Shown in pieces: positions 13,044 to 52,098 of a stretch of DNA of 64,000 nt. The notes under the pieces were generated by a model, which searched no databases, was not told the DNA's origin, and worked only from the letters and a program-made list of their open reading frames with translations. The stretch comes from an uncultured Isosphaeraceae bacterium (GTDB lineage Bacteria; Planctomycetota; Planctomycetia; Isosphaerales; Isosphaeraceae). The translations under genes were made by a program, and so were the position numbers. Position 1 is the first letter of the stretch; every line of letters begins with the position of its first letter. The stretch lies in the NCBI GenBank assembly GCA_945957605.1, contig CAMFLR010000007.1:186001-250000 (forward strand), written 5' to 3'.

Positions 13044-13211
13044 GCACCGACAAGACCGAGCTGGCTGCCGATTTTACCTGGTTCTGCGAGTGGTTTTTCC
13101 GAGGGCTCCAAAGAGTACCAGTCGTCATTCTTGTGGTTACAATAAACGACCAGAGCGCGATTTTGCTTGCGTTCGATTTATTCAAGAGCATTCGCGAGCG
13201 AGTGTATTCTC

Positions 13212-16200: not shown

Positions 16201-18734
16201 TTGCGACGGGAACGGAAAGCTCGATTTCACCCGCGATCGGCTTTGTTCGCATATTCGATAGCGATACGGGAGAAAATCTCAAAACTTTCAAAGACGATAT
16301 GAGAGGCCCCATTGCTTGCCTGGTATACAGTCCCGACGGTAAGCGGCTGCTCGTTGGAACGGGAGGAGTTCATCCCAGGTTTCGTGGCATCAAGCAGACT
16401 TGTGCAGTCATTGATGCGGAGGATGGCAAGGTCATCGCCAGTTATGATGGGCACAGTCAATCGCTCTTTGATGGCTGCTTGAGTCCGGATGGTAAGCTCG
16501 CCGCGACTGTTGCGTTCGATGGCGGAGTGCATGTTTGGGATACAACCACGGGCGCCAAGAAGATGATACTGCGCCCAGCGGATGAGGCAGATACCGTCTT
16601 TCGCGGGGTTGCATGGAGTCTCGATGGCAAGACGATTGCCGCCACTGGCCTCGACCAGAGTGTTTGGCTTTTCGACGTATCAACGCAAAAAGAAACTCGC
16701 AAACTCAAGGGGCACGCGGGTGAGGTTTATCGCGCCGCGTTTACTCCCGATGGCCAACGTCTGGCGACAACCGGCCGCGATGCAACGGTTAAGCTCTGGA
16801 ACGTCGCTACGGGAGACGAAGTGCTCAGTTTTCGCGAGCACACGAGTGAAATTTACGACTTGGCGTTCAGTCCTGATGGGCAGACCCTCGCCTCTGCGGG
16901 ATTCGATCAAAAAACGATACTGCGATCGATCAATTTTCCCGATTATCCCAAAACCGATGGATGGGACGTGGTTTTGTCCGACGATTTTGAACGCCAAGAC
17001 TTGGGTGATCGCTGGGATGTTGTCTGCGGCGACTGGTCGATCGAGAAGGGGGCTGCAAAAGGGGCGATGCACGTGTCACGTCGCGACCGTCATCCCTTTG
17101 ACTGGGCGACGCTCGTTCCCAAGGGACTCTATCTGCCCTCGCAAGCCGAAGTTCGCTGTGAAGTTTGGTCGCCCGACGCGATTAACGTCGAATTGAAGTT
17201 GCATGAAAGCTCCAGTCTGTTGGCGACTGAGGGACTGCTTGGAATTCTCAGTGGAAGTGCAAAACAACGGTACGAGAGCGACCGTGGCTCGACGCTTCTT
17301 ATTGAAGCATCGAATGCGTATCGCAACGTGCTGACGAACCCGCGATTTGTGCTTGAACCTGGAGTTCACCGCAAAGTACGTATGCTCCGCGAGCGGCGCC
17401 GATTTACTGTTTGGATCGACGGCGAGGAGGCGTTATCGGTACCCATCCCAGATCTCATTGTTCCGGTTTTGCATCTGCAAGCGGGATACGGCAAGCCAGG
17501 GGATGTGGTCTATCTCGACAACGTCGAAATACGCCGACCACGTGAAGCGGCACGAGAGCAAAACGCCCTGAAACGTCTGGCGGAACTGACGAACAGCGAG
17601 CCGCTTCTCGCCGATGCTCTGGCGAAGCTTAAAACCGACACGTCGATCGATGGAGCTACGAAAGAACTGGCGCTCGCGATTGGCTCTCGACAGGAGCAGA
17701 GCCCCAATCAGTTGATCAACTTGACGTATCCTGTCGTGATCAAGTCCGGATGCATGCCTGAGGAGTACCAGCTCGCGCTCAAGCGACTGGAGTCGCTCAT
17801 CGCGAAATCGCCCGACTATCGTCAAGCTCGCGAGCAAGAGGGTGCGGCCTTGTACCGGCTCGGTCGATACGACGAGGCCCTCAAAGCTCTTACCGCTGCG
17901 AACGAGCTTCGCATGAAACAGGGGCTGCACCTCGCTCCGGCGCAACCGCTTGTTTTTCGGGCAATGTCTGAGTTTCGCCTTGGGCATCGGCCTGAAGCCG
18001 CGGCATTGCTCGACGAGCTGGGCCTATCATTGGCCGGCCAACCTGGCGTTGCGAGTGCGGTCGTGCTTCGCGACGAGGCAGAAGCGCTGATCGGCTCGAA
18101 AGCCGCGACGGAGCGACAACTGCTTTGCGAGAACATCACGAAAATCGCCCAGGCGATGCACGCCTATCACGAGAAGGAACTCAGATTTCCCAGCTCTGCC
18201 ATATCGAGCACAGAAAATAGGCCACTACTGAGCTGGCGGGTTGCGCTTTTGCCCTATCTCGGTGAGGAAGCCTTGTACAGTCGTTTCAAGCTTGATGAGC
18301 CCTGGGATAGCCCAAGCAATCAGCCGCTGATCAAGGAAATGCCTGCTGTTTATTCGCGGGCAGTCGCTCAACCGAATGCAGGCGGTCTGACTCCATTCCG
18401 CGTTTTCAGCGGTGCCAACACGCTATTCGACGACAAGACTGCGATGAATTTGGCCAAAATTACTGATGGGACGATCAACACGATTCTGGCCGTCGAGTCG
18501 AGCGAAAGCGTGCCCTGGACCAAGCCGGATGAATTGCTCGTGCCCAAGGATGGAAGTCTTCCGAAACTCGGCACAGCAGACGGAAAACGCGCAACGATTG
18601 TACTCGCAAGCGGCACCGTGATCGTTCTTGAATATACCGCGGAAACCGATCGCATTCTTCGACGGATGATCACTCCCAGCGGCGGTGAGAACGTCGATAG
18701 TGCTCCGTTGACGAAATGGCTAAATCATAAGTGA
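13212..18734 (+). CDS. Ser/Thr protein kinase - TM - WD40 - lectin-like - TPR - DUF1559 fusion
   Basis: An 1840-residue multidomain protein. Kinase domain at about 144-450: glycine loop GGLGEVFVA, VALKE lysine, catalytic loop HRDLKPAN near 278, and DWG in place of DFG near 298, a variant seen in planctomycete kinases. A transmembrane helix lies at about 470-490 (AIASALILVTIVSVFATIFV), then a coiled coil rich in Ala, Gln and Lys. About 596-1236 hold 14 WD40-type repeats by my count (recurrent FSPDGKR and VWD), enough for two seven-bladed propellers. About 1250-1440 is a concanavalin-like jelly roll (DDFERQDLGDRWDV, then DNVEIRRP). About 1450-1630 is TPR-like helical. The C-terminus (about 1633-1836) is a DUF1559 domain without its usual prepilin leader (LLSWRVALLPYLGEEALY, DEPWDSPSN). 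The frame is open from 13167 (TTG), but ATG 13212 is the better start. The kinase would be cytoplasmic and the rest exported. Confidence 0.88.
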   Translation: MTWTAADRDQLLCLLALKNGLIDHKVLATSMFDSGSLDGESLLDAVVRRSGLSRDVFTTLSFIAESIVSEYPDSPREYLAALADSIEGTRQPDATGSFRPQAENHGDDFATRVPSPADFAETQNRGEDAQGTDGEIEVHWREHRFTRLRPHAKGGLGEVFVAMDRELDREVALKEIQDHHADRSDSRARFFQEAKVTGALEHPGIVPVYGLGHYADGRPYYAMRFIRGKSLKESIQEYHTEPNLRSSTADRLMLQQLLRRFLDVCNAISFAHSKGVLHRDLKPANVMLGQFGETLVVDWGLAKVKGVADQTDEASRDGGGAGRISGSLSGSSAETLPGSAMGTPQFMSPEQAQGDLDSLGAASDVYSLGATLYTVITGHAPFEDKTIAEVLDKVSRGEFPRPRQISRKIHPGLDAICCKAMALHPADRYESVQLLAQDIEHWLADEPVLAQRETWFSQSHRWLRRHRTWAQAIASALILVTIVSVFATIFVGKERDAADGARVRAMENLVKADRSRLAAVEATNQAKASQKQAETAQVEASQQKEKALSQLYLASMGLAQQEWNVGNVGRAEQLLDSCPERFWGWERRYLKALCHSDSMTYSGQSSVARLIAFSPDGKRVISVDAAGILKTWDTETGRSLSSRMTDSLGLAFDSSRTRMVGITNDPKEYLIWDLTKETSPTRIVMNGTRGVAAAFRPDGKQLALVKDASLIQLWDLEKGVESSILSGRADPLVYFTYSPDGKLIAVARRFGWIEIWDLETGKRRHEFRGHPGEGIEVQRVEFRPDSKALVSVGLDGGRVWDVADAHQIGSLQANSSFLYCGSFSPDGKRIATSGADRTVRVWDTTTFRELANFRGHTHEVTLVTWSPDGTKLLSSSNDTTLRTWDVGNEAITSPPSATAASSNAGSSTEPRVAPLRTLGGHTGAVSAFSFSPDSKRMATVSWDGYLITHDLATGGILKKIQVTTQNALSNQIRMLRGGTAFSTSVGAVAFSPDGKRIATGTESSISPAIGFVRIFDSDTGENLKTFKDDMRGPIACLVYSPDGKRLLVGTGGVHPRFRGIKQTCAVIDAEDGKVIASYDGHSQSLFDGCLSPDGKLAATVAFDGGVHVWDTTTGAKKMILRPADEADTVFRGVAWSLDGKTIAATGLDQSVWLFDVSTQKETRKLKGHAGEVYRAAFTPDGQRLATTGRDATVKLWNVATGDEVLSFREHTSEIYDLAFSPDGQTLASAGFDQKTILRSINFPDYPKTDGWDVVLSDDFERQDLGDRWDVVCGDWSIEKGAAKGAMHVSRRDRHPFDWATLVPKGLYLPSQAEVRCEVWSPDAINVELKLHESSSLLATEGLLGILSGSAKQRYESDRGSTLLIEASNAYRNVLTNPRFVLEPGVHRKVRMLRERRRFTVWIDGEEALSVPIPDLIVPVLHLQAGYGKPGDVVYLDNVEIRRPREAAREQNALKRLAELTNSEPLLADALAKLKTDTSIDGATKELALAIGSRQEQSPNQLINLTYPVVIKSGCMPEEYQLALKRLESLIAKSPDYRQAREQEGAALYRLGRYDEALKALTAANELRMKQGLHLAPAQPLVFRAMSEFRLGHRPEAAALLDELGLSLAGQPGVASAVVLRDEAEALIGSKAATERQLLCENITKIAQAMHAYHEKELRFPSSAISSTENRPLLSWRVALLPYLGEEALYSRFKLDEPWDSPSNQPLIKEMPAVYSRAVAQPNAGGLTPFRVFSGANTLFDDKTAMNLAKITDGTINTILAVESSESVPWTKPDELLVPKDGSLPKLGTADGKRATIVLASGTVIVLEYTAETDRILRRMITPSGGENVDSAPLTKWLNHK

Positions 18735-27137: not shown

Positions 27138-27761
27138 GTGGCGACGAATGATCCCGAGATTGACGCCCTACTTCAGGCGGCCGCCCGGGGTAATGATTCG
27201 GCGTTGCGCGACCTCCTGGCCCGGCATCGACTTCGGCTCCGTCGAATGGTCGCCGTGCGACTCGATAATCGGCTCAGCGCGCGGGTCGATCCCTCGGACA
27301 TCGTTCAGGAGGCGCTCGTCGACGCCGGACGTAAGCTCGTCGACTACGCGAGGGACCAGCCACTCCCTTTCTACTCGTGGCTTCGCCAGATCGCGCAGGA
27401 ACGGATCATCCAAACCCATCGGTATCACCTTCAATCGAAGCGGCGAGAAGTTGGTCGCGAGGTAGCGGTTTCATGCAGGCCGGCTGATGGCTCGACTTAT
27501 CATCTGGCCGATCGCCTGGCAGCTAGCGGGACTAGCCCAAGCGGAAAAGTGATCCGGGACGAGCGGCGAGCGCTGGTGATCGATACGCTGGAGCAAATGG
27601 TCGAGGCAGACCGCGAGGTTCTGGTGATGCGTTATCTCGAAGGAATGTCGTTTGGCGAAATCGCCGAGGTGACAGACGCTACCGAAGGAGCCGTGAAGGT
27701 TCGCCACTTCCGGGCTCTTGGACGGATTCGCGTGATTCTGAGCGATGAATCTCTGGGGTGA
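27138..27761 (+). CDS. ECF RNA polymerase sigma factor (kinase-associated type)
   Basis: A 207-residue ECF sigma factor. Region 2 is seen as ARRGNDSALRDLLARHRLRLR followed by the core-binding DPSDIVQEAL and YSWLRQIAQERIIQTHRYHL. A linker leads to region 4 (DREVLVMRYLEGMSFGEIAE, VTDATEGAVKVRHFRALGRI). The frame is open to TTG 27063, but GTG 27138 has GGAGGAG at 27125-27131 and matches the normal N-terminus, so I chose it. Its stop overlaps the GTG that could start the kinase gene, so the two are co-transcribed. This is one of two sigma/kinase pairs in the window, a pairing known in Planctomycetes as ECF-STK. The kinase is presumed to control the sigma factor in place of a classical membrane anti-sigma factor. 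Confidence 0.92.
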   Translation: MATNDPEIDALLQAAARGNDSALRDLLARHRLRLRRMVAVRLDNRLSARVDPSDIVQEALVDAGRKLVDYARDQPLPFYSWLRQIAQERIIQTHRYHLQSKRREVGREVAVSCRPADGSTYHLADRLAASGTSPSGKVIRDERRALVIDTLEQMVEADREVLVMRYLEGMSFGEIAEVTDATEGAVKVRHFRALGRIRVILSDESLG

Positions 27762-27766
27762 AGACG

Positions 27767-30700
27767 ATGCAGTCGAACGAGGCCGAGGGGCAAGTACCGG
27801 ACGACGACGATCCGATCCTCGTTGAATGGGCCGCGGAGATCGCTGACCGGATCCAGTCTGGCGAGTCGGTCGACCTCTCGGCGTATGCACGCCTCCACCC
27901 GCAACGGGCGGCCGCGCTTCGCGGCATGATCCCGGCGATCGAGATGCTCGCTGGTCTTGGCGTTTCACCCGATCGGAAAGATCGTCCATCCACTCCCGCG
28001 GAGCCGTGCGAAGAGTTGGGCCATCTCGGCGATTTCCGACTCATCCGCCAGGTCGGGCGGGGCGGAATGGGAATCGTCTACGAAGCGGAGCAAGTCTCAC
28101 TTCGTCGTCGCGTCGCGCTGAAGGTCTTGCCGTTCGCGGCCACACTCGATCCCAGGCAGCTTCAGAGGTTTCAACTCGAAGCGCACGCCGCGGCCTGCCT
28201 CCACCACACTCATATCGTTCCGATTCACGCCGTCGGAACCGAGCGCGGTGTGCCGTTTTATGCGATGCAATTCATCGACGGGCAGAGTCTCGCCGAGTTG
28301 ATCGACGATCTGCGACGCCTCGAAGGCCGAGAACCAGTCTTGGCATCAACCCAGGATGCGGCCGAAGGGAAGCCCGCGAGTAGCACCACGTCTGGCGCAA
28401 CGCGGAAGGTGGAAATCGGGTCGGGCTCGGTGACTCGTGGCCGCGCCCACGTCCGCAATGCAGCAAGGCTTGCCCTGGAAACCGCTGAGGCACTCGATCA
28501 TGCCCATACGCGCGGCATCCTCCACCGCGACATCAAGCCCGGCAACTTGCTAATCGACACCCAGGGGAGTTTGTGGGTCGCCGATTTCGGGCTGGCGCAG
28601 GTGCAGGGTGACCACGGGCTGACCCTTACTGGCGACATCATGGGCACGCTCCGCTACATGAGCCCCGAGCAGGCTCTTGCCCGCCGAACCGTGATCGATG
28701 CCCGAACTGACATCTACTCGCTCGGCGTGACACTCTATGAACTCCTGACGCTCCGGAACGCCTTCGACGGAAAGGACCGCGCTGAGATCTTACGGAAGAT
28801 CGCCCAGGACGAACCTACGCCGCTTCGTGCGCTCAACCCCTCAGTTCCAGTCGACCTGGAAACGATTGTCACGAAGGCAATATCCAAGGCGCCGGCCGAT
28901 CGTTACTCGACCGCGAACGATTTCGCCGAAGACCTCCGGCGGTTCCTCGACTCGCGACCGATCGTTGCTCGGCGTCCCAGCTTGCTGGACCGGGCGACGA
29001 AGTGGGCGGTCCGTCACCGTACAGCTACCGTCGGCGCCGCCGTGGTGGTTGCGACAATCCTGCTCGTCACGACAACGGCTGCCGTGATTGTGGCCTCCAA
29101 GGAGCACGAACGCGGGCAGGCGGCCGTCGCGGTCGGGGACCTTCAGACGCGGTTGCGCCTTCAGGCCGAAGAACAAGCAGAGCAGGGGAGGCATCGCCAG
29201 GCCCGGCTCAACGTAGATCAAGGCGTCCGCTTGATGGAGGACGGTGATCTGCCCGGAGCACATCGCCACTTTGTCGAGGCGCTTCGGCTCGACGAAGGAG
29301 ACGCGGAAAAGGTCGCCGATCATCGGCTACGGCTTGGGATGCTCCTTTCTCAGTGCGCGAAACCGACATGGATATGGTTCCAGGACCAACCGATCGACGC
29401 CGTTGCACTTCGACCCGATGGCCGCGCCGCGGCCGTGGCGCTTCGCGACGGCACCATTACGGTCTACGACGCAATCAGCGGGCGGCCCCTTGGTCCCTCC
29501 TTCGTCCAGCAGGCTCCGATTGGCACCATCGAATTTAGCCCCGACGGAAAGCGGATTGCCGTGGCTCGCGGCGATCAAGAAGTCCGGGTTCTCGACGTGG
29601 CAAGCGGCCGGGAAAGTTTCCCTCCGCTCGTCCACTCTGAGCGGGTGTATGAGCTCGATTTCAGCCCCGACGGAAAGCTCCTGCTCACCACACTCCGAAC
29701 CCGACGCCCTGACTACCCAACGTGGCGCGTCTGGGACGCCGAGACGGGCCTTCCCGTCACCGATTGGATGACGTCCGATTTTGCCGTGTCTGCACATTTT
29801 AGCCCCGACAGTAAGTTGGTAGCCGTCCCCAACGGCCACAATTTGCTGATCTACGACGCGCGGAGTGGACGCCAGGTCGCACCGCCGATGCCGCACGGCT
29901 CGACGCCGACGCTCACGACCTACAACAGCTTCAGCCCCGACTCGCGACGGGTCGTGACTGGCTGCGTCGACAATGTTGCACGCGTATGGGACGTGGCCAC
30001 AGGGCAGTTAACCGCCTCGATGCAGCACAAACAATGGGTTCAAGCGTCATTCAGCCCCGACGGCCGCCGCGTGCTTACTTCATGCACAGATGGCACTGCT
30101 CGGGCCTGGGACTCGAAAACGGGCGCGGCAACCTGCGACCCATTGCACCATCCTGGGGTGGTCAAGAACGCCGTCTCCAGTCCCGACGGCACGCTTGTGG
30201 CGACGATCTGCGACGACCATGCAGTTCGCGTCTGGGACGCCGCCACGGGCCGCGCCGTGCTGCCGCCACTCCGGCATCTCGGCACACTTCTCGCAACCCA
30301 GTTCACCGCCGACGGCCGCTACTTGTTCACCGCGAGCGCCGATCGCACAATTCGCTTTTGGGATCTCGCCGCAGCGAGCCCTGCAGGCCCTCGGCTGCTG
30401 GTGCCGGGCCGCGACTTTCGGGCCGCATTCGGCTCGGGAGGCAAGGTCTTGATCACACACGGCGCGGGTGGCACTGCACGAGTCTGGGACGTGGTCAGCG
30501 GCAGGGCTCTCGGTTCGCCGGTCTCCTTCGACGCTCAGTGGCTTCCCCTCGGCCGGGTGAGCCCGGACGGCCGCTCATATGCGATTGTCGGTGGCCAGTC
30601 CGATCATCGATACGCGGCTTGGGTCTGGAACATTGAGACCCGGCAAACAGAGATCGGTCCCCTCGTCGTTGATTTCAAGAAGTCGGCGGGTGACACGAAC

Positions 30701-32431
30701 CGATCTCTGATCGCCTGGAGTTCGGACGGCCGACGGGTCGCCGTCGCGGCCGGGTCGGACGAATTCTTCTCGCCGGCAAACACCGTGGTCCGCATTTGGG
30801 ACGCAAAGACCGGCAGCCCGGTGACCCCCGAACTCAACTACAACGGCGTGGTTTACACCCTCGACTTTAGCCCCGACGTCCGCTCGCTCGTAACAGCTAG
30901 CCGCATGAGCACCGGCAACGACGAGGTCGGAGAGGTCGTGATCGTCGACGTCGAGACCGGCGCGCGCAAAGGTAGTCCAATCCGTACCTCGACCGCATGC
31001 ACGATCGCTCGGTTCAGCCCCGACGGCCAACGGCTACTCGTCGTGAGTGAAGGAGTGCGCGACGTCAACGGAAGCGATATTCGCATCCTGGACGCCGTCT
31101 CCGGCCGACCGCTTACGCCGTCAATTCACCACGAAGCCGTCATCGGAAATGCATTCTTTACACGGGATGGCGGACGGGTCGTGACCACCAGCGATGCCGT
31201 CCGCGTTTGGGACGCGGAGACGGGAACCCAGTTGGGCTCTCCGATCGAGTTTTCTCTCCCGATCGGACACGCTTCGCTCGATGCCGAAGGTCGGCGGCTT
31301 TTGGTCACTTGCGGCTGGCCAGGCTCTTACGCGATCGACCCCGGTTTCGTGAAAGTGGTGGACCTGGAGACAGGCAACCCTCTCACTCCGCCCCTTTGGC
31401 GCGAGCGATTCGTCCAAGGTGCGGCGTTCAGCCCAGATGGGCGGCGCATAGTCACCACCTGCCTGGAAGGCGGCATCTTGTTTTGGGACCTTTCCCCTGA
31501 TGCCCGCCTGCTTGAGAGCCTGGTCCAAACGGCGGAAGTTCTCTCGGGAACTCGAGTCGACGGCTCGGGCGCTAGCATCCCCATCACGACGGACGAGCTT
31601 CGCGAAGCCTACAACACCCTACGAATCAAAGACCCGAATGCGTTCTCCGCTAGCGATGAGCAGGTCATTGGCTGGCATCACGAGCGGCTACAAGCATGCG
31701 AAGCCGCGCGATCGTACAGCGCCGCGTTGGTGCACATCGACGCCCTCCTGGCAACGGGACAATCGAGCGATTCACTCATAGGTCGCCGGGCGAGAACTCT
31801 CGCTGAGTTGGGGCGGTGGAAGGAGGCGGTTGAGGGGTTCGCGTCGGTGGTTCACTCAGATCCGCGTCGAGCCGTCGATTGGTATTCGCTTGCCTTGGCC
31901 CATCTGGGAGCGGGCGACCGCGATGGCTATCGCGCCACATGCGTGAAAATGCTCGACACCTTCGGTTCGGCCGACCCATCGAGCGACGACATCCTGTACA
32001 CGTTGAAGGCTTGCACGCTGGCAAAGGAGGCGCCCGCCGCCTCGACGATCGCCGCAGACTTTGCCAAACGTGTCAGGATTGCCCGCCCAAATGATCAAGC
32101 TTCCCTCCTCGTGGCTCTAGGTATTCTTCATTACCGCGCAGGGGCCTTTGAAAAGGCTGCCGAGACATTGTCCGAAGCCGATCGACAGGCGGGGACGCTT
32201 AAGTCCGCATCCGTCGACACTTGGTATATCCTCGCGATGGCACACCATCACCTCCGTCACCCCGAAGAATCGAAGAAATGGGCCGACCGGGCTTTGGCGG
32301 CGACAAAGCCAATACTCGATGACGTCGGCCAACTCGGTGGCGACCAGACTGACTGGCGGCGCGGTCTGACGCTACAACTCCTTCGACATGAGCTTGAGTC
32401 CCTGCGAGCTTCCGACACTTCGCGTCACTGA
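27767..32431 (+). CDS. Ser/Thr protein kinase with TM segment, WD40 propellers and TPR-like tail
   Basis: A 1554-residue protein. A short acidic N-terminus of about 85 residues (with YARLHPQRAAALRGMIPAIE) is typical of these kinases. The kinase domain has all core motifs: GRGGMGIVYEA, VALKVLP, HRDIKPGNLL near residue 252, VADFGLA near 272 and SPEQA near 300. A transmembrane helix lies near 420-440 (VGAAVVVATILLVTTTAAVI), then a short Gln/Glu-rich coiled coil. About 540-1245 contain some 16 WD40-like repeats by my count (FSPDGRR, VWDAATG). The last 280 residues are helical and TPR-like. GTG 27758 overlaps the sigma-factor stop; ATG 27767, six bases after GGGGTGA, is the better start. It is the partner of the ECF sigma factor upstream and probably couples an envelope signal, sensed by the propellers, to transcription. 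Confidence 0.92.
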   Translation: MQSNEAEGQVPDDDDPILVEWAAEIADRIQSGESVDLSAYARLHPQRAAALRGMIPAIEMLAGLGVSPDRKDRPSTPAEPCEELGHLGDFRLIRQVGRGGMGIVYEAEQVSLRRRVALKVLPFAATLDPRQLQRFQLEAHAAACLHHTHIVPIHAVGTERGVPFYAMQFIDGQSLAELIDDLRRLEGREPVLASTQDAAEGKPASSTTSGATRKVEIGSGSVTRGRAHVRNAARLALETAEALDHAHTRGILHRDIKPGNLLIDTQGSLWVADFGLAQVQGDHGLTLTGDIMGTLRYMSPEQALARRTVIDARTDIYSLGVTLYELLTLRNAFDGKDRAEILRKIAQDEPTPLRALNPSVPVDLETIVTKAISKAPADRYSTANDFAEDLRRFLDSRPIVARRPSLLDRATKWAVRHRTATVGAAVVVATILLVTTTAAVIVASKEHERGQAAVAVGDLQTRLRLQAEEQAEQGRHRQARLNVDQGVRLMEDGDLPGAHRHFVEALRLDEGDAEKVADHRLRLGMLLSQCAKPTWIWFQDQPIDAVALRPDGRAAAVALRDGTITVYDAISGRPLGPSFVQQAPIGTIEFSPDGKRIAVARGDQEVRVLDVASGRESFPPLVHSERVYELDFSPDGKLLLTTLRTRRPDYPTWRVWDAETGLPVTDWMTSDFAVSAHFSPDSKLVAVPNGHNLLIYDARSGRQVAPPMPHGSTPTLTTYNSFSPDSRRVVTGCVDNVARVWDVATGQLTASMQHKQWVQASFSPDGRRVLTSCTDGTARAWDSKTGAATCDPLHHPGVVKNAVSSPDGTLVATICDDHAVRVWDAATGRAVLPPLRHLGTLLATQFTADGRYLFTASADRTIRFWDLAAASPAGPRLLVPGRDFRAAFGSGGKVLITHGAGGTARVWDVVSGRALGSPVSFDAQWLPLGRVSPDGRSYAIVGGQSDHRYAAWVWNIETRQTEIGPLVVDFKKSAGDTNRSLIAWSSDGRRVAVAAGSDEFFSPANTVVRIWDAKTGSPVTPELNYNGVVYTLDFSPDVRSLVTASRMSTGNDEVGEVVIVDVETGARKGSPIRTSTACTIARFSPDGQRLLVVSEGVRDVNGSDIRILDAVSGRPLTPSIHHEAVIGNAFFTRDGGRVVTTSDAVRVWDAETGTQLGSPIEFSLPIGHASLDAEGRRLLVTCGWPGSYAIDPGFVKVVDLETGNPLTPPLWRERFVQGAAFSPDGRRIVTTCLEGGILFWDLSPDARLLESLVQTAEVLSGTRVDGSGASIPITTDELREAYNTLRIKDPNAFSASDEQVIGWHHERLQACEAARSYSAALVHIDALLATGQSSDSLIGRRARTLAELGRWKEAVEGFASVVHSDPRRAVDWYSLALAHLGAGDRDGYRATCVKMLDTFGSADPSSDDILYTLKACTLAKEAPAASTIAADFAKRVRIARPNDQASLLVALGILHYRAGAFEKAAETLSEADRQAGTLKSASVDTWYILAMAHHHLRHPEESKKWADRALAATKPILDDVGQLGGDQTDWRRGLTLQLLRHELESLRASDTSRH

Positions 32432-43803: not shown

Positions 43804-46800
43804 GTGAAGTTGAAACTCAACTACTGCGAGGGATTGGAATTGCTGCCTGCGGACGAACCTCCCACAGACCGGCCATCAGGCAATATTGCCATTGATTCGG
43901 CTTCGACGGCCGCAAGCGGATCTCCCGCGAAGAGCGATGACGCTCAGGGCGTCGCGTGCGATCTCGATCGAACTCAAGACGTCACGGTAGACGTGAAGCC
44001 TTCAGCCTCGTCCGTTCCCGACACTTTATCACTCCCCAATGCGTTCGGCCGTTACGAGGTGCGCCGATTGCTGGGTGTCGGCGGATTTGGGGCGGTTTAT
44101 CTTGGCCACGACACGCAGCTCGATCGACCGGTTGCGATCAAAGTTCTGCGTGATGAGGCTGATGTGCGGCTCGGCCAGGCGGAGCAACTCCTGCATGAAG
44201 CTCGCCGGCTGGCGCGGCTGAATAACCGCGGCATCGTCACCGTCCACGACGTTGGTCGGGACGACGGGCAAATCTATATCGTATCCGAATTTCTTGAAGG
44301 GCCGAGCCTCTCGCAGTGGCTCAAAGGAAACCGCGCGAGTTGGGACGAAGTAGTTCGAATCGTGGCCGCAGTGGCCGACGCCCTCGCGCATGCGCACGCC
44401 AGACTGATCGTCCACAGAGACATCAAACCTGCGAACATTATTTTGACGGCCGATCGCGGACCTGTTGTTGTCGACTTCGGACTGGGCCTTGATGAAACGC
44501 GAGCGGGCGGAGGTGAAATTGGTGTCGTGTGCGGCACGATGGCGTACATGGCGCCTGAGCAGTTCGCAGGAAAGGCACATCGAATCGATGGTCGCACCGA
44601 TATTTATAGTTTGGGTGTGATTCTTTATGAGATGATTTGCGGATTGAAGCCATTTCGCGGAGTGGATTCCCAGGAGCTCTTGCGGCAGGTGCGCGACGAC
44701 GAGCCCCAGCCGCCACGTCAAATTCGGCTCGATATCCCTCCTGAACTCGAAAAGGCTTGTTTGAAAGCTCTCGCGAAGGAGATGCGAGACCGTCAGACCA
44801 CCGCCGCGGATTTTGCCGAGGAACTGCGGCGAATTGGCCTTCCTAATTCGCCGCGCACCACACATCAGAACTCACCGTCGCCGATCGTTCCGAAGCCGCC
44901 CGCGCCAGCGGTCTATCCGGCTCCTCGGACTTCAGACGGCCCATCCAGTCGATCGACATCGCCAAGCTCCCTGCCTCGCCGTGAAGCCGAGCGGCGACAG
45001 GTAACAATGCTCATTTGTGGTTGTGAGCTGTTCCGATCGGAAGAGTTTCTTGAAGGACTCGACCCTGAGGATCAAGCCCAGGTCTTGCGGAAATTTCAGC
45101 AGGCGTGCGATCAGGCGCTGCAACCATTCGAGGGTACGGTGGTCCAGTGCAATGAGGATGGCCTGCTGGCCTGCTTTGGTTATCCCGTGGCGCGCGAGGA
45201 CGCTGCTCGACGTGCAGCCCGTGCAGGGCTTGCCATCCTTGATCAAATGAAGACGTTTAGCTCGACATTGCTCCGTGAACGCAAGTTTGAATTGAACGCG
45301 TGGGTTTGCCTTCACATCGGGCCGGCCGTTGTCGAATCAGACGAGAGCAGAGTTACGTTAGTCGGCGAAGCTCGAAACGTGGCGGCGCGACTCGAGGAGT
45401 TTGCCCAGCCGGAAAGAATCGTCGTCACTTCGACCACGCATCGCTTGATCCGAAATGTGCTCAATTGCACAGCTCTTGGCCTTCGTAAGATCAAGGGGAT
45501 GGCGCGGCCGGTCGAACTCTTTGTGATCGAGGGCATCGGCGAGACTCGCAGCCCTGTCGACGTCGAGGCGGCAGCGCTGACGCCGCTTACGGGCCGCGAT
45601 CAGGAGGTCAACCTTCTCAAGGAGCGCTGGGAGCAGGCACGCGAGGGAATGGGGCAGATCGTTCTACTGATCGGCGAAGCCGGCCTGGGCAAGTCGCGTC
45701 TTGTGTACACGATGAAGGAGCACGTGCTGGGGCAGATGATCGAAGGCGAGGTCGACGCTCCGGTCATTGAGTGGCGTTGCGGACCGCACTTTCAGAACAC
45801 CGCGCTCTATCCAGCGATCGATTTCTACGGTCGCGCTCTCTCGTTCGGACCAGAAGAACCGCCGCTCGCCCGATTCGACCGCATGATGCACCGGCTCGAG
45901 GAATACGGCCTGGATCAGCCGGAAAACGTGCCGCTTTGGGCACCGTTGATGTCTCTGCCGATTCCGGAAGGCTATCCAAAACCCTCGCTATCGCCGATCC
46001 GGCAAAAAGAGGAAACGTTTCGGTTTATGATGGAGTGGTTGCGCACCCGCGCTGCGCGCAAGCCAATTCTTTTCGTGATCGAAGACTTGCACTGGGTCGA
46101 TGCGTCGACTCTCGAATTTCTCAGCCAATTTGTGGCAGAAGGGCTGCACGAGTCGATCCTGACGTTGCTGACATTCCGCCCAGAATTTCAGACCCCCTGG
46201 CCAGCGCTTGCGCATCAAACTAGCCTGGCGCTCACGCGGCTTTCACGCCGCCAGTCCGGCGAGTTGATTCAACAGAAGCTGGGCCGTAATGCGCCGCCAG
46301 AGCTAATCGACGAGATTTATAACAGGGCAGGGGGCGTGCCGCTCTTTGTCGAAGAGTTCTCGCGGATGCTGCAGGAAGCGGGCCTTTCCGACTCGTCTCA
46401 AATGGGTGGCAGCAAAAGTAGCAGTAGCAGTCCGCGGAAACTTGCTTCGCTTTCACGCGAAATTCCGAGCACGCTTCAGGACCTCGTGATGGCTCGCCTC
46501 GATCGGATGGAGGGTGAGCGCGATCTTGCACAACTTGCCGCCACGCTGGGGCGTGAGTTCAATTACGACGTTCTCGCGGCTGTTGCCGGTCTTGATGAAT
46601 CAACGCTTCGCGCCGACCTGACGAGGCTCGTCCAGGCCGATATCCTTCATCCCAAGGGCAAGCCGCCACGGTGTACTTATTTATTCAAGCATGCTTTGCT
46701 TGAGGACGCTCTTTACAGCACGATGATCAAGGTCAAGCGGCAGCAGTTTCACAAACGCATCGGCGAGGTGCTGGAAACGCGGTTCCCGCAGACGACACAG

Positions 46801-48132
46801 ACGCAACCGGAGCTAGTTGCCCATCACTTCACGCTCGCGGAGCAAACAGATAAGGCGGTTGGATACTGGTTGAAGGCGGGGTTGCGATCCCGAGCAAGAT
46901 CGGCGGAATTCGAGGCGATCGAGCAATTGACGCAAGGTCTAGACTTGCTCAAGAAGCTTGCCGAATCTCCCGAGCGAGATGGGACGGAGCTCGAATTGCT
47001 GAGCTCGCTCGGCACGGCTTACATCACCGCGCGAGGTTACGCGGCACCCGAGATCGGTCCAACCTTCGCGCGAGCGAGCGACCTCTGTAGAAGGCTCGGC
47101 GCAACCTCCGCGCTCGTGGGGATGACGTGGGGCACGTGGGTCTGGCATCTTGTTCGCGGCGATCTGAGAGAATGCGTTCCCCTTGCAAGCGACGCTCTGG
47201 CCTGGGCTCGAACGACCGAGGACACCGGGATCCGCCGCGAGTTGCTTCGGATGCCGTCGGTGACAGAACTCTATCGTGGCGAGTTCGCGCCCTCCCGCGC
47301 GCATTCTGAAGAGGCACTTGCGCTCGGTGAAAATCGGGAGCAATGCAGTTACTGGTCCAACTTCACCGGCGAAGATTCTACGATCACTCACCGCTGCTAT
47401 TTCTTCCTCGCCCTTTGGAACCTGGGCCAGGTGGATCAGGCCGTGAGATTGTCCGAGGAGACGATCGAACTCGCACGGACGATCAAGTTTTCGTTCAGCG
47501 TGGCGCATGCGCTGCACCACGCGTGCTGGCTCTACATCAATGCACGGCTCGGGAGCCATCTGAGTGCCGCGGCCGAAGCTCAGCTCGCGATTTCGGCCGA
47601 GCAGGGTTACGGCCTTTGGCACGCCACGGGAACGTTTTACAAGGGGGCAGGTTTGCTGCTGCAGGGCAAGCCGCAAGCAGCAATTCCTCTGATGCTCAAG
47701 GGTATCCAGGCGTTCCTCGCCACCGGGGCCGAACTTACGCTTACGTATCAATACGGAACTCTTGCAGAAGCTTACATGCGAGCCCATCAATATGCCGATG
47801 CCCAAAATGCCTTGAACGAAGCCCTCGCATTTGCGGAGAAAAACGACGAACACTGCCACGAAGCTGAGTTGCACCGTCAGCAAGGGGAACTTATCGTTTC
47901 CGAACGCCCCGCTGATGCGGAAGCATGTTTTCGTCGGGCGATCGAGCTCGCTCAGAGGCAACAAAGCTGTGCATGGGAACTACGGGCAACGCTAAGCCTC
48001 GCGAAGCTTTGTCGTAAACAAGGCCGCGGAATCGAAGCACAAGTGATGCTCGCCGATGTGCTGGCCCGCACGGTTATGGACAGCGCAACGCCCGACCTCA
48101 TCGAAGCCACAGCTCTGCTGAATGCTGAATAG
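43804..48132 (+). CDS. Ser/Thr kinase / class III cyclase-like / ATPase / TPR fusion protein
   Basis: A 1442-residue cytoplasmic protein with no membrane segment. Kinase domain at about 80-345: VGGFGAVYLG, VAIKVLRD, HRDIKPANIIL near 205, VVDFGLGL near 224. A Pro/Ser-rich linker leads to a class III nucleotidyl cyclase homology domain (about 398-575): RRQVTMLICGCELF, NEDGLLACFGYPVAREDAAR. The first metal-binding aspartate, usually in LFCDLVG, is absent, so activity is doubtful. Next is a STAND-type AAA ATPase starting LTGRDQEVNLLKERW with Walker A GEAGLGKS near 625 and IEDLHWVDASTLEFL. The last 430 residues are TPR-like. The order matches proteins called TOMM-system kinase/cyclase fusions; no TOMM precursor or modification genes are seen nearby. 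The start is GTG with a weak ribosome binding site. Confidence 0.9.
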   Translation: MKLKLNYCEGLELLPADEPPTDRPSGNIAIDSASTAASGSPAKSDDAQGVACDLDRTQDVTVDVKPSASSVPDTLSLPNAFGRYEVRRLLGVGGFGAVYLGHDTQLDRPVAIKVLRDEADVRLGQAEQLLHEARRLARLNNRGIVTVHDVGRDDGQIYIVSEFLEGPSLSQWLKGNRASWDEVVRIVAAVADALAHAHARLIVHRDIKPANIILTADRGPVVVDFGLGLDETRAGGGEIGVVCGTMAYMAPEQFAGKAHRIDGRTDIYSLGVILYEMICGLKPFRGVDSQELLRQVRDDEPQPPRQIRLDIPPELEKACLKALAKEMRDRQTTAADFAEELRRIGLPNSPRTTHQNSPSPIVPKPPAPAVYPAPRTSDGPSSRSTSPSSLPRREAERRQVTMLICGCELFRSEEFLEGLDPEDQAQVLRKFQQACDQALQPFEGTVVQCNEDGLLACFGYPVAREDAARRAARAGLAILDQMKTFSSTLLRERKFELNAWVCLHIGPAVVESDESRVTLVGEARNVAARLEEFAQPERIVVTSTTHRLIRNVLNCTALGLRKIKGMARPVELFVIEGIGETRSPVDVEAAALTPLTGRDQEVNLLKERWEQAREGMGQIVLLIGEAGLGKSRLVYTMKEHVLGQMIEGEVDAPVIEWRCGPHFQNTALYPAIDFYGRALSFGPEEPPLARFDRMMHRLEEYGLDQPENVPLWAPLMSLPIPEGYPKPSLSPIRQKEETFRFMMEWLRTRAARKPILFVIEDLHWVDASTLEFLSQFVAEGLHESILTLLTFRPEFQTPWPALAHQTSLALTRLSRRQSGELIQQKLGRNAPPELIDEIYNRAGGVPLFVEEFSRMLQEAGLSDSSQMGGSKSSSSSPRKLASLSREIPSTLQDLVMARLDRMEGERDLAQLAATLGREFNYDVLAAVAGLDESTLRADLTRLVQADILHPKGKPPRCTYLFKHALLEDALYSTMIKVKRQQFHKRIGEVLETRFPQTTQTQPELVAHHFTLAEQTDKAVGYWLKAGLRSRARSAEFEAIEQLTQGLDLLKKLAESPERDGTELELLSSLGTAYITARGYAAPEIGPTFARASDLCRRLGATSALVGMTWGTWVWHLVRGDLRECVPLASDALAWARTTEDTGIRRELLRMPSVTELYRGEFAPSRAHSEEALALGENREQCSYWSNFTGEDSTITHRCYFFLALWNLGQVDQAVRLSEETIELARTIKFSFSVAHALHHACWLYINARLGSHLSAAAEAQLAISAEQGYGLWHATGTFYKGAGLLLQGKPQAAIPLMLKGIQAFLATGAELTLTYQYGTLAEAYMRAHQYADAQNALNEALAFAEKNDEHCHEAELHRQQGELIVSERPADAEACFRRAIELAQRQQSCAWELRATLSLAKLCRKQGRGIEAQVMLADVLARTVMDSATPDLIEATALLNAE

Positions 48133-48166: not shown

Positions 48167-51100
48167 TCACTTCGAAATCTGGCCGCGCGCCTGAAGACGT
48201 CGTGACACAGGAAAGGCGTCCCAAAGGCGGACGGTGGAGTCGCCGCCACCCGAGACCAAGCTAGTCCCGTCGGGACTAAATGCCAACGAGTAGACATAGT
48301 TAGTGTGGCCCTGCAGTCGGGCGAGCTCGGCACCGTTGACGAGATCCCAGATACGGATGACACGGTCGCGACCGGCCGAAACAATTCGATTGCCATCGGG
48401 ATGGAACACCGCGGCGAACACCTCGTCGGTATGTCCTCGGAGGACGCGAACACATTCGCCTGTGGTGGCGTCCCAAAGCCGTACGGTGCTGTCATTGCCT
48501 GCCGAGACGAGACTCGCGCCGTCGGCGCTAAAGGCGACTCGATTCACTCGTTCATGATGTCCACTCAGCCGTATTTGTGTTTTGCCCGTTGCCGCGTCGA
48601 GGATGAACACATCGGAGCTATTGTCCACCACCGCCAGGCGGCGACCGTCCGGGCTGTACTGCAAGGCCCGTGCTGAATCACTCGGGAGAGTCCACGCGTC
48701 GAGCTCGCGTCCATCGGGGAGGGTCCAGAAACGCAGTTTATTCCCAGTGGGGCAGGCCACGCGGCTGCCGTCCGGTGATATGGCGATCTCATGGGGACAA
48801 TCCGCCAGACCCAGCCAAACGCCGGGAAGAACGGCCGTCGCCTTGCCGGTCTCAACGTTCCATATGCGAACAGTTCGATCGCCACTTCGCGATATCAGCC
48901 AGCGATTGTCGGGACTGAAGACCAGGCTGGCGATGTAATGCTCGTGGCCACGCAAGACTGCGCGAGTCTGGCCGGTCGAGGCATCTCGAAGGCGGATTTC
49001 GTGATTCCAGTCACCACTGGCGATGGTATGTCCGTCGGGGCTGTAGACTACCGGGTAGACACTCGCAGTGTGATCGCGCAACGCGTGCGGATCGCCAAGA
49101 CCCGGTCCGTCCCATACGCGGGCGTCCCAATTTTTACCGGAAGTATCGCGAGAGACCGACGCCACGCGATGGCCATCCGGGCTGAACGCCAGGCGATGCA
49201 CGGGGGCCGTATGACCATGCAGCACGGCAATGGCTTGACCTCCCGCAGCATTCCAGTAGCGAATCGTGCCGTCAGTTCCACCGGATGCGATCCAGCTGCC
49301 ATCCGGGCTATAGGCGACGGTATTCACCGGACCGACGTGGCCGTAGCGCTCGTCAATGACCTTTCCGCTTGCGAGGTCCCACTGGCGAAAGGTCTGGTCG
49401 ACCGAGCATGACAGCACGACCCGGCCGTCCGGTCGAAACGCGACCGAACTAATGAGATCTGTATGTCCCGCAAACGTTTGCAGAGGCTTGCCCCCGGCCG
49501 TGCCCCAAATGCGCACGTGGCGGTCATCGTTGCCGGTTACGAGACGCCGGCCATCGGGGCTGAACGCGACGCATCGGAACTCTTCGTTTACGGGGTCGAA
49601 CCTCGCAATCTGTTTGCCGTCGGCAAGGTCGAACACCGCGAATTCCTTGCTTCCGCGTTTTGTAATCCATGCGCAAGCCAGACGCGTGCCTGATGGGTCG
49701 AACGCCCAGGCGTGTATGTAGGTTGCACCGGGAAGCGTGATCTGCTGTCGGACATTGCCGTCTTCGCCCAGAACACGCAAAAATCCGGACTGATAATCGA
49801 CGACGAGCACGAGGCGGCCTTCGAGCGTCGTTGTCACGTTCAAGTCACGCGGGACATCGGAAGTGATCGGTGCACTCGGCGCGCCGTTGGCTGCGTTCCA
49901 GAGACGAACGCCCTGATCTGTAATCGAGGCGAAGCGATTACCGGCGGGGCATGGCACCAGAATCCTGCCCGCATCGCGGAGCACTGCCACGCTGTCGTCG
50001 AGCCGGGCGGAGGCATAATGCCACTCCCATCCGCGACGAGTGAAAGGAACCGCTTCCAGTTGGTCGGCCGCCTCACGAATATTGTGGTTTTCTAAAGCCG
50101 CGAGAGCCGCTGCTAAACGCGCCTGGTAGGCTTCGCGCAAGGCCTCACGCTGGGCCAATCCGGCCTCGCGGGCGCTGTTGTCTGCCAGACCTCGTAAGCG
50201 AGACTCGCGCAACGCAGTCAAACCCGTTGCTACCATCCCCGACGTCAACACGGCAACGACAACAGCGGCCGCAACGACAAGCGCCAGATGCCGTCGTACG
50301 AACTTCGCCGATCGATCGAGCGCCGACGGTGGTCGTGCGCGAATCGGTTCGCCAACCAGGAAGCGGTGGAGGTCCTCCGCGAGGCCGCTGGCGCTGGCGT
50401 AACGGCCGGCCGGAGTCTTCGCCAGGCACTTCAGGCAAATCGTTTCCAGGTCGCGAGGGATCCCGGCGCGATGGACACGCGTTGGTCTGGGATCGTCGTG
50501 CAAAACGCGGACGAGCACATCCAGCGGGGTGTCACCCGTGAAGAGCGGTTGGCCTGTCAGCAGCTCGTACAGAATGACACCCAAAGCGTACACATCGCAA
50601 GCCGGGCCGACAGGGTGCCTGCTCCCCGGCGAGGACCGGCTGAGTTGCTCGGGTGCCATGTACCGCGGCGTCCCGAGAACCTGACCGGATTCGGTTGTAG
50701 GCATTTCGGCGCCGGCATGTTCCTCGAAATTCTTCGCGAGTCCGAAATCCGCAATCTTCGGAGCGCCATCGACGGTCAGCAGCACATTGGCCGGCTTCAG
50801 ATCGCGGTGGACAACCCCGCGTTCGTGCGCGAACTGAACGGCCCGCGCAAGTCGCTCGCAGAGTTCAGCGGCCTGACGCGCTGGCATGGTTGTGCCATCG
50901 AGCTGCGCGGCCAGAGTTCCGCCCTCGACAAACTCCTGAGAGAAGTACGGCAGGCCTTCTGCCTCGCCGGTCTCAAAAATCTGCACGATATTGGGATGCT
51001 GGAGTCTGCCCACCGCTAGAGCTTCAGCGCGAAAGCGGTCCAGGCTCTTGGCTGTGGCGAAGGCGCCGCCAAGGATCATTTTTAGGGCAACGATCCGGTT

Positions 51101-51448
51101 CAGGCCGACCTGCCGGGCCCGATAAACGACGCCCATCCCGCCGCGTCCAAGTTCGCCGAGAATCTCGTAACCCGGCACGCTTGGCAGATGACGAGGGCCA
51201 CCGGTGGTGATGTCACGATCATCACAGATTTGGACAAGTGATTCGGCCACCGTTTTCAGTCGGTGCAACATTTCCGGCTCGAGCGCGGGGCCAGCCGTTG
51301 CGATCGGCTCCGATACGGTCAAGGCTTCCATCGCCTCGCGACACGGAACGCATCGAACCAGATGTTCGTCGAGCATTTCCTCTTCGGCGACCGTCAGTTC
51401 GTCGGCGAGGAGTCGCCGAAGGTGATTGACTGACGGACATGGGCTCAT
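48167..51448 (-). CDS. Zinc-finger Ser/Thr protein kinase with TM segment and WD40 propellers
   Basis: A 1093-residue protein. Residues 1-45 contain a zinc-finger-like segment with DEHLVRCVPCREAMEAL, the His-x3-Cys-x2-Cys pattern of zf-HC2 anti-sigma factor domains. The kinase domain (about 85-370) has GRGGMGVVYRA, VALKMIL, HRDLKPANVLL and IADFGLA. A transmembrane helix (LVVAAAVVVAVLTSGMVAT) lies near 395-415, then a coiled coil. About 480-1090 hold 14 WD40 repeats by my count (FSPDGRRLVTG, IWDLVNG), enough for two seven-bladed propellers. ATG 51448 overlaps the stop of the ECF sigma factor gene (ATGA), so translation is coupled. The zinc finger is what an anti-sigma factor would use to hold the sigma factor, so this kinase may itself be the regulator. 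Confidence 0.92.
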   Translation of the reverse strand: MSPCPSVNHLRRLLADELTVAEEEMLDEHLVRCVPCREAMEALTVSEPIATAGPALEPEMLHRLKTVAESLVQICDDRDITTGGPRHLPSVPGYEILGELGRGGMGVVYRARQVGLNRIVALKMILGGAFATAKSLDRFRAEALAVGRLQHPNIVQIFETGEAEGLPYFSQEFVEGGTLAAQLDGTTMPARQAAELCERLARAVQFAHERGVVHRDLKPANVLLTVDGAPKIADFGLAKNFEEHAGAEMPTTESGQVLGTPRYMAPEQLSRSSPGSRHPVGPACDVYALGVILYELLTGQPLFTGDTPLDVLVRVLHDDPRPTRVHRAGIPRDLETICLKCLAKTPAGRYASASGLAEDLHRFLVGEPIRARPPSALDRSAKFVRRHLALVVAAAVVVAVLTSGMVATGLTALRESRLRGLADNSAREAGLAQREALREAYQARLAAALAALENHNIREAADQLEAVPFTRRGWEWHYASARLDDSVAVLRDAGRILVPCPAGNRFASITDQGVRLWNAANGAPSAPITSDVPRDLNVTTTLEGRLVLVVDYQSGFLRVLGEDGNVRQQITLPGATYIHAWAFDPSGTRLACAWITKRGSKEFAVFDLADGKQIARFDPVNEEFRCVAFSPDGRRLVTGNDDRHVRIWGTAGGKPLQTFAGHTDLISSVAFRPDGRVVLSCSVDQTFRQWDLASGKVIDERYGHVGPVNTVAYSPDGSWIASGGTDGTIRYWNAAGGQAIAVLHGHTAPVHRLAFSPDGHRVASVSRDTSGKNWDARVWDGPGLGDPHALRDHTASVYPVVYSPDGHTIASGDWNHEIRLRDASTGQTRAVLRGHEHYIASLVFSPDNRWLISRSGDRTVRIWNVETGKATAVLPGVWLGLADCPHEIAISPDGSRVACPTGNKLRFWTLPDGRELDAWTLPSDSARALQYSPDGRRLAVVDNSSDVFILDAATGKTQIRLSGHHERVNRVAFSADGASLVSAGNDSTVRLWDATTGECVRVLRGHTDEVFAAVFHPDGNRIVSAGRDRVIRIWDLVNGAELARLQGHTNYVYSLAFSPDGTSLVSGGGDSTVRLWDAFPVSRRLQARGQISK

Positions 51449-52092
51449 AGCGAGGCTCCGAGGCACGGCGGCAGCGCTGCGCCGACCGGCGCGGTGCCTT
51501 GCTCCAGCCGCGCAACCTCGTCTCGCAAAAATTGAAGCACCCGACTCTTCGCCTTGAAGACCGCCGTCAGGCGCATTCCTAGCCTCTCGGCAACGGCATC
51601 TCCCGATAGCCCCTCATTGGCGGTCAACCGAAAGGCTTCCCACGTTTGCGGATCGACACGCAGCCGGACGCGGGCGACTGCCTCGCTCATGATTTCCTGA
51701 TCGAATTGCTCGTCGAGCCGGGCCAGCAGGTCCGCGCGGGCTGGGGCACTCTTGAGGACATCGAGTACGCCTGTATCGCCGCTCGCACGGACGCGCCTGG
51801 TCTGTTCGGCGAAGAAATCGCTGCACGCGTGTTCGGTGAGAGTGCGCAACCAGCCGCGGAAGCTGCGCGAAGGATCATAAGCGAAGTTTCGCAGCTTCCG
51901 AGCCAGGCATAGTAGCACTTCCTGCGTCACGTCCTCGGCGTCGGCTTCCTGAAGTTGCCATTGTCTGCACCAGGCATACATCATCGGGCCGTATTGCTGC
52001 ACAAACCGGTCCCACGCAGCCTGGTCGCCATGACCCAGACTTAGCCGGCCGAGCAAGGTTTCACTCGTGAGTGGGGAAGAGTCAAACGGCAT
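51445..52092 (-). CDS. ECF RNA polymerase sigma factor (kinase-associated type)
   Basis: A 215-residue ECF sigma factor. Region 2 is recognisable as HGDQAAWDRFVQQYGPMMYA with EADAEDVTQEVLLCLARKLR and FRGWLRTLTEHACSDFF. Region 4 is TWEAFRLTANEGLSGDAVAE followed by RLGMRLTAVFKAKSRVLQFL. It differs clearly from the factor at 27138-27761, so the pairs are not a recent duplication. The open frame starts at TTG 52098, but ATG 52092 is the first ATG. The stop overlaps the start of the zinc-finger kinase (ATGA). This kind of sigma factor with a dedicated kinase instead of a soluble anti-sigma factor is known from Planctomycetes. No promoter motif that it might recognise could be identified. Confidence 0.93.
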   Translation of the reverse strand: MPFDSSPLTSETLLGRLSLGHGDQAAWDRFVQQYGPMMYAWCRQWQLQEADAEDVTQEVLLCLARKLRNFAYDPSRSFRGWLRTLTEHACSDFFAEQTRRVRASGDTGVLDVLKSAPARADLLARLDEQFDQEIMSEAVARVRLRVDPQTWEAFRLTANEGLSGDAVAERLGMRLTAVFKAKSRVLQFLRDEVARLEQGTAPVGAALPPCLGASL

Positions 52093-52098
52093 GGGCAA

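Follow-up and report, generated by a model that had tools for sequence, protein, structure and literature searches.

The gene at 43804-48132 on the forward strand of a 64,000-nucleotide stretch of DNA from an uncultured Isosphaeraceae bacterium (contig CAMFLR010000007.1, positions 186,001 to 250,000; the whole stretch is called the window here) encodes a kinase/cyclase/ATPase fusion. The protein is best explained, with a probability of roughly 0.6, as a Ser/Thr kinase switched by an ATPase, in which a cyclase-fold module has been retained but is probably dead. Judged from its relatives, the cyclase part has probably lost its enzymatic function and been retained in another capacity, because 47 of 49 kinase-fused sequences have a broken active site, the cyclase domains of the relatives are under purifying selection and the predicted fold is intact. 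The parts of the protein are:

43804..48132, + strand: whole gene, kinase / pseudo-cyclase / AAA_16 / TPR-like; a single open frame of 1442 amino acids with a GTG start
44053..44799, + strand: Ser/Thr kinase domain, residues 84-332, with K113, HRD (204-206) and DFG (224-226) present; Pkinase 151 bits (Pfam)
44980..45537, + strand: class III cyclase-fold domain, residues 393-578; PF00211; predicted local distance difference test score (pLDDT) of the model 95.3; template-modelling (TM) score to 3r5g 0.91
45586..46140, + strand: AAA_16 ATPase domain, residues 595-779, with Walker A GEAGLGKS (624-631) and Walker B ED (760-761); Pfam and motifs
46501..48129, + strand: C-terminal region with TPR-like repeats; Pfam matches slightly below the cut-off

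The fusion had been proposed in an earlier, sequence-only reading of the window, and it is borne out: Pfam recognises Pkinase, Guanylate_cyc (PF00211 at residues 400-576, 38.7 bits against a cut-off of 21.9) and AAA_16 within the one frame. The kinase domain carries the VAIK Lys, the HRD Asp and the DFG Asp of a Hanks-type Ser/Thr kinase, and the AAA_16 domain has both Walker A and Walker B, as in the ATPase part of a STAND-type signalling ATPase. In the tail, TPR_12 scores 29.1 against a cut-off of 30.1 and TPR_2 scores 26.7 against 27.

Broken cyclase sites go together with added output domains. The four catalytic positions, the metal-1 and metal-2 aspartates and the transition-state Asn and Arg (D-D-N-R), are incomplete in 47 of the 49 non-redundant kinase-fused rows (window protein included) and in 11 of 11 relatives that are fused to BTAD, a DNA-binding module, against 7 of the 50 relatives in which no added output domain is recognised, the other 43 of which keep all four. 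Fisher's test gives p = 9e-20, although relatedness among the rows leaves few truly independent cases; the tree holds about six effector changes. Losses within the kinase clade are many and varied. Metal-1 switches between intact and not intact 9 times in 41 kinase-clade rows versus 2 times in the 50 rows without an added effector, and metal-2 switches 5 times (with 16 residue changes) versus once. Both metal aspartates are kept in L041, L043 and L077, which belong to a basal offshoot of the kinase clade, and in L044 elsewhere, which suggests, as far as the aligned residues go, that fusion came first and decay followed.

These relatives (cited by L numbers) come from a profile scan that gave 77 loci and from further whole-genome searches; a protein-only scan of the genome contigs with the cyclase domain as query gave no matches. 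Open frames were taken, the part from the cyclase to the TPR region was aligned and the D-D-N-R positions were read off. After near-identical or short rows were dropped, 119 of 137 rows were kept, of which 8 have no readable cyclase. The sampling was directed, with the window protein aligned to three kinase-fused relatives as main query and TIGR03903 and a BTAD-fused protein as the others. Rows count as having 'no added effector' when phmmer gave neither a kinase nor a BTAD match, with a Pfam scan for some rows only; the BTAD fusion was called by phmmer in all 11 rows, two of which (L113 and L087) were also scanned with Pfam. The D-D-N-R counts leave out L021 and L022 (no AAA anchor), L006 and L011 (duplicates of the window protein), L038 (the same as L012), L106, 8 rows that either have no cyclase or are truncated where the contig ends, and 18 near-identical or short rows that include the kinase-fused L042 (NDHR) and L097 (DDNK), both broken. 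L100-L101, L124-L133 and L163-L168 lie outside the scored set. In a search of the Chloroflexi phylum for kinase-fused members, 2 of 400 genomes matched, and both matches begin after the kinase part of the model.

The cyclase domain has nevertheless been kept. Mean identity in this domain is 0.37 in the kinase clade against 0.48 in the intact group, and the corresponding values are 0.50 against 0.38 for the AAA domain and 0.42 against 0.36 for the TPR region. R398, G444, P461 and G521, among other core residues, do not vary in either group. For the cyclase domain, 13 of 19 kinase-fused pairs have a ratio of non-synonymous to synonymous substitution rates (dN/dS, omega) of 0.05-0.33 and 6 are saturated; the relatives' cyclase domains are under purifying selection. 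The AlphaFold models of the window domain and of the intact relative L045 have pLDDT values of 95.3 and 91.0, and the nearest solved fold to the model is CyaB (3r5g; Z 26.7 over 184 residues), with GC-A also among the fold matches. The domain is thus confidently predicted to adopt the full cyclase fold.

The active site of the window copy contains the following features:

45016..45021, + strand: C405-G406, a two-residue insert within beta-1 or directly behind it; these columns are gapped in all 38 intact relatives
45025..45027, + strand: E408, in the metal-1 column, which holds Asp in 38 of 38 intact relatives (alignments)
45145..45147, + strand: Q448, in the substrate-selecting Lys/Gln column; Gln is common among intact relatives (alignment)
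45157..45159, + strand: D452, the metal-2 Asp, retained and preceded by E451 in place of Gly (alignment)
45172..45174, + strand: C457, a position with Cys in 40 of the 41 clade members and in 0 of the 50 relatives lacking an added effector (alignment)
45301..45303, + strand: W500, a position that is Trp in 25 of the 41 clade members and Arg in 47 of the 50 relatives lacking an added effector (alignment)
45376..45390, + strand: N525 and R529, transition-state residues, retained (alignment)

The sequence-only reading had taken the first metal-binding aspartate to be missing, on the strength of the string LICGCELF, read against the usual LFCDLVG. The string is there and no Asp immediately follows LIC, but in two MAFFT alignments with relatives the two-residue insert precedes the site and Glu408 falls in the metal-1 column, and a profile of 50 sequences (the window protein and relatives) aligned to the solved CyaB structure 3r5g does the same. 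Among the 41 kinase-fused clade members this column holds 18 Glu, 16 Asp, 5 Asn, 1 His and 1 Trp, whereas column 406, chosen in the earlier, ungapped reading, holds Gly, Asn, gaps and others. From these alignments, therefore, the metal-1 position reads as an Asp-to-Glu change and not as plainly missing. That reading had itself named another acidic residue in the metal site as what would contradict it, and by the alignments Glu408 is such a residue. Its placement in space is less firm: the AlphaFold models of the window domain and of L045 both have beta-1 at residues 4-15 and the elements after it are shifted by two between them, so the modelled insert may be taken up in the turn following beta-1. 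In place of the two metal-binding aspartates of a class III cyclase the window copy has Glu at metal-1 and Asp at metal-2; the fold (PF00211) and the transition-state Asn and Arg are those of the class. By its aligned residues the window copy is among the better-kept cyclase domains of its kinase-fused group, and a single missing Asp cannot carry the case. The idea that the cyclase part has turned into a regulatory or binding domain is instead supported by the family, through its broken sites, purifying selection and intact fold.

Several observations weigh against a dead, retained module. The kinase-fused L041 and L043 keep D-D-N-R, and in L017 a CHAT domain is fused before an intact cyclase-ATPase (CHAT rows: one intact, none broken). 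Only 2 to 5 pairs are available for the independent-pairs test, which is too few, and a kinase fusion that arose once is not rejected by the approximately unbiased (AU) test (p 0.25). The only pair that includes the window protein is saturated, so omega comes from its relatives. Finally, the window copy itself retains D452, N525 and R529 together with an acidic residue at 408, from which residual cyclase activity is possible. The strongest rival builds on these residues and holds that the domain is still a working, perhaps slow, cyclase, a homodimer with Glu408 and Asp452 as metal ligands and Asn525 and Arg529 stabilising the transition state; Gln448 and Glu522 fit this too, both states being common in the aligned intact relatives. 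However, the two-residue insert lies next to the site, the copy carries G451E and R500W, the metal-1 Asp is invariant in all 38 intact rows and the close relatives L023-L025 have Gln at metal-2. We regard a working enzyme as unlikely, and judge it quite likely that catalysis has been lost in the window copy.

A further possibility is that the domain is the C2-like partner in a mixed pair, lending Asn525 and Arg529 in trans to a cyclase with intact metal sites. The clade keeps Asn in 27 of 41 members and Arg in 33 of 41 but the metal-2 Asp in only 7 of 41, and metal motifs that look intact are present in at least four cyclases of the genome, which also encodes a double-cyclase AAA_16 protein with a split arrangement (L004:1393-3486, +). 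Yet Asn and Arg erode too, to T, G, H, N and Q in relatives, and no partner is encoded next to the gene, which makes such pairing improbable. Inspected by eye, the two cyclases of the L004 protein resemble a split pair: the metal Asp motifs are retained in the first, the Asn/Arg motif in the second.

The domain could also be a functionless remnant decaying on its way to loss. Six verrucomicrobial relatives nested in the clade near the window protein (L076, L083, L084, L091, L093 and L094) have only the AAA and TPR-like parts, and their loci contain no separate kinase or cyclase open reading frame. Against this stand the purifying selection in relatives, the near-invariant core residues and the confident prediction of a full fold, so that there is little likelihood of mere decay.

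A role as regulator of a TOMM natural-product cluster is largely refuted and very improbable: although the architecture is that of the NCBIfam family TIGR03903 (TOMM system kinase/cyclase fusion), the match spanning positions 4-1266 of the 1267 in the model with kinase, cyclase-like domain, AAA_16 and TPR-like tail all represented, its 613 bits (612.9 in the genome search) fall below the curated cut-off of 705.75, no YcaO (PF02624) match is found in the bacterium's own 8.8-Mb assembly (95% complete), and YcaO occurs in only 6 of 40 genomes having kinase-fused relatives (6 of 43 searched). The absence of TOMM genes nearby, noted from the sequence alone, thus extends to the genome. The same reading had treated the damaged site as a departure from the TOMM fusions, a view that is not supported. 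Rows above the TIGR03903 cut-off (L102 with 1012 bits, L118 with 1094, and L119-L122) have broken cyclase sites too, so by these alignments a broken site does not set the window protein apart from them. A YcaO gene is located some 2.1 kb from L118 on the same contig, and the genome of L102 has no YcaO match. A 2010 paper on NHase- and Nif11-related TOMM precursors mentions that in Burkholderia such precursors are accompanied by a large Ser/Thr kinase (PMC2887384).

For a kinase switched by an ATPase through a pseudo-cyclase, we propose the following working. The N-terminal Ser/Thr kinase would be the output of a soluble signalling ATPase, the TPR tail would sense a ligand, and the AAA module would switch on ATP and assemble. 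The pseudo-cyclase, perhaps still able to bind nucleotide, would then pass the switch on by pairing or positioning the kinase domains; its relatives work as dimers. Catalysis by the cyclase would probably have been lost once another output domain had taken over signalling. In our judgement the relay role, with its putative dimerisation and kinase control, is about as likely as not.

The kinase lineage has also gained features. Cys457 is present in 5 of 5 Polyangia kinase fusions as well, and a CxC sequence near the metal site (window 45016-45024) is common, with Cys405 in 24 of 41 and Cys407 in 26 of 41 clade members. Judged from conservation, the CxC pair and Cys457 (window 45172-45174) could form a metal or redox site. 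A general rule of output replacement can be offered only tentatively: when a cyclase-ATPase-TPR sensor gains a kinase or a DNA-binding module at its front, cyclase catalysis would decay and the domain be kept as a relay from ATPase to output, the kinase lineage having in addition acquired a fixed Cys457 and often CxC and Trp500, a possible new ligand, metal or redox site. We found no literature report of such a rule for kinase or BTAD fusions, in a search that left most subscription journals outside its coverage.

The genome encodes a second kinase-cyclase fusion of another architecture, outside the window (L169:1640-5326, -, on G000:C4, 1228 amino acids), with two kinase stretches (the first, by eye, without the usual HRD and DFG), a DUF5939 match and a class III cyclase. 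Aligned to Ma1120, this cyclase has its metal positions occupied by Gln and Glu and its Arg position by Thr, and by this alignment is a further case in the same direction as the kinase-fused clade. Within the clade, the kinase domains of L023 and L024 are 41% identical while their cyclases are 67% and their ATPases 76% identical, which suggests from sequence identity that the kinase has been swapped. In the window, the gene seems to stand alone, because the gene-like open reading frames flanking it on both sides are on the opposite strand. The window also contains three large kinase-WD40 proteins (13167-18734, 27758-32431 and 48167-51466), the last of which adjoins a sigma-70 region 2 protein at 51445-52098.

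Among known systems, receptor guanylyl cyclases likewise join a kinase fold and a class III cyclase in one chain with one of the two inactive. In those receptors the cyclase is the active part and the kinase-like domain the inactive one; here the roles look reversed, with a kinase that looks intact by its motifs and a cyclase that appears dead, so the window protein may be seen as roughly their mirror image. The kinase-less cyclase-AAA-TPR proteins (for example L045 and the mycobacterial L060-L066) have a homologous cyclase, ATPase and tail; they differ in having no added effector, and they are the group in which D-D-N-R is kept in 43 of 50 rows. The mycobacterial Mclx proteins Rv0386, Rv1358 and Rv2488c are described as cyclase, AAA/NB-ARC and LuxR helix-turn-helix fusions, two of which (Mclx2 and Mclx3) are reported to be without cyclase residues and are proposed to be regulators that bind or respond to ATP or cyclic AMP (cAMP) (PMC4452763). 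Compared by that description, they share with the window protein a cyclase domain, an AAA-type ATPase and another output domain, but their output is a C-terminal LuxR DNA-binding domain and not an N-terminal kinase.

Annotation as kinase/cyclase fusions would count such proteins as sources of cAMP. Nearly all the sampled kinase/cyclase fusions, including members of the family that gave them the name, are probably not. Set side by side, the fused and unfused relatives provide a natural series from intact to partly broken to lost, in which the change of an enzyme into a regulator on gaining a new output can be studied.

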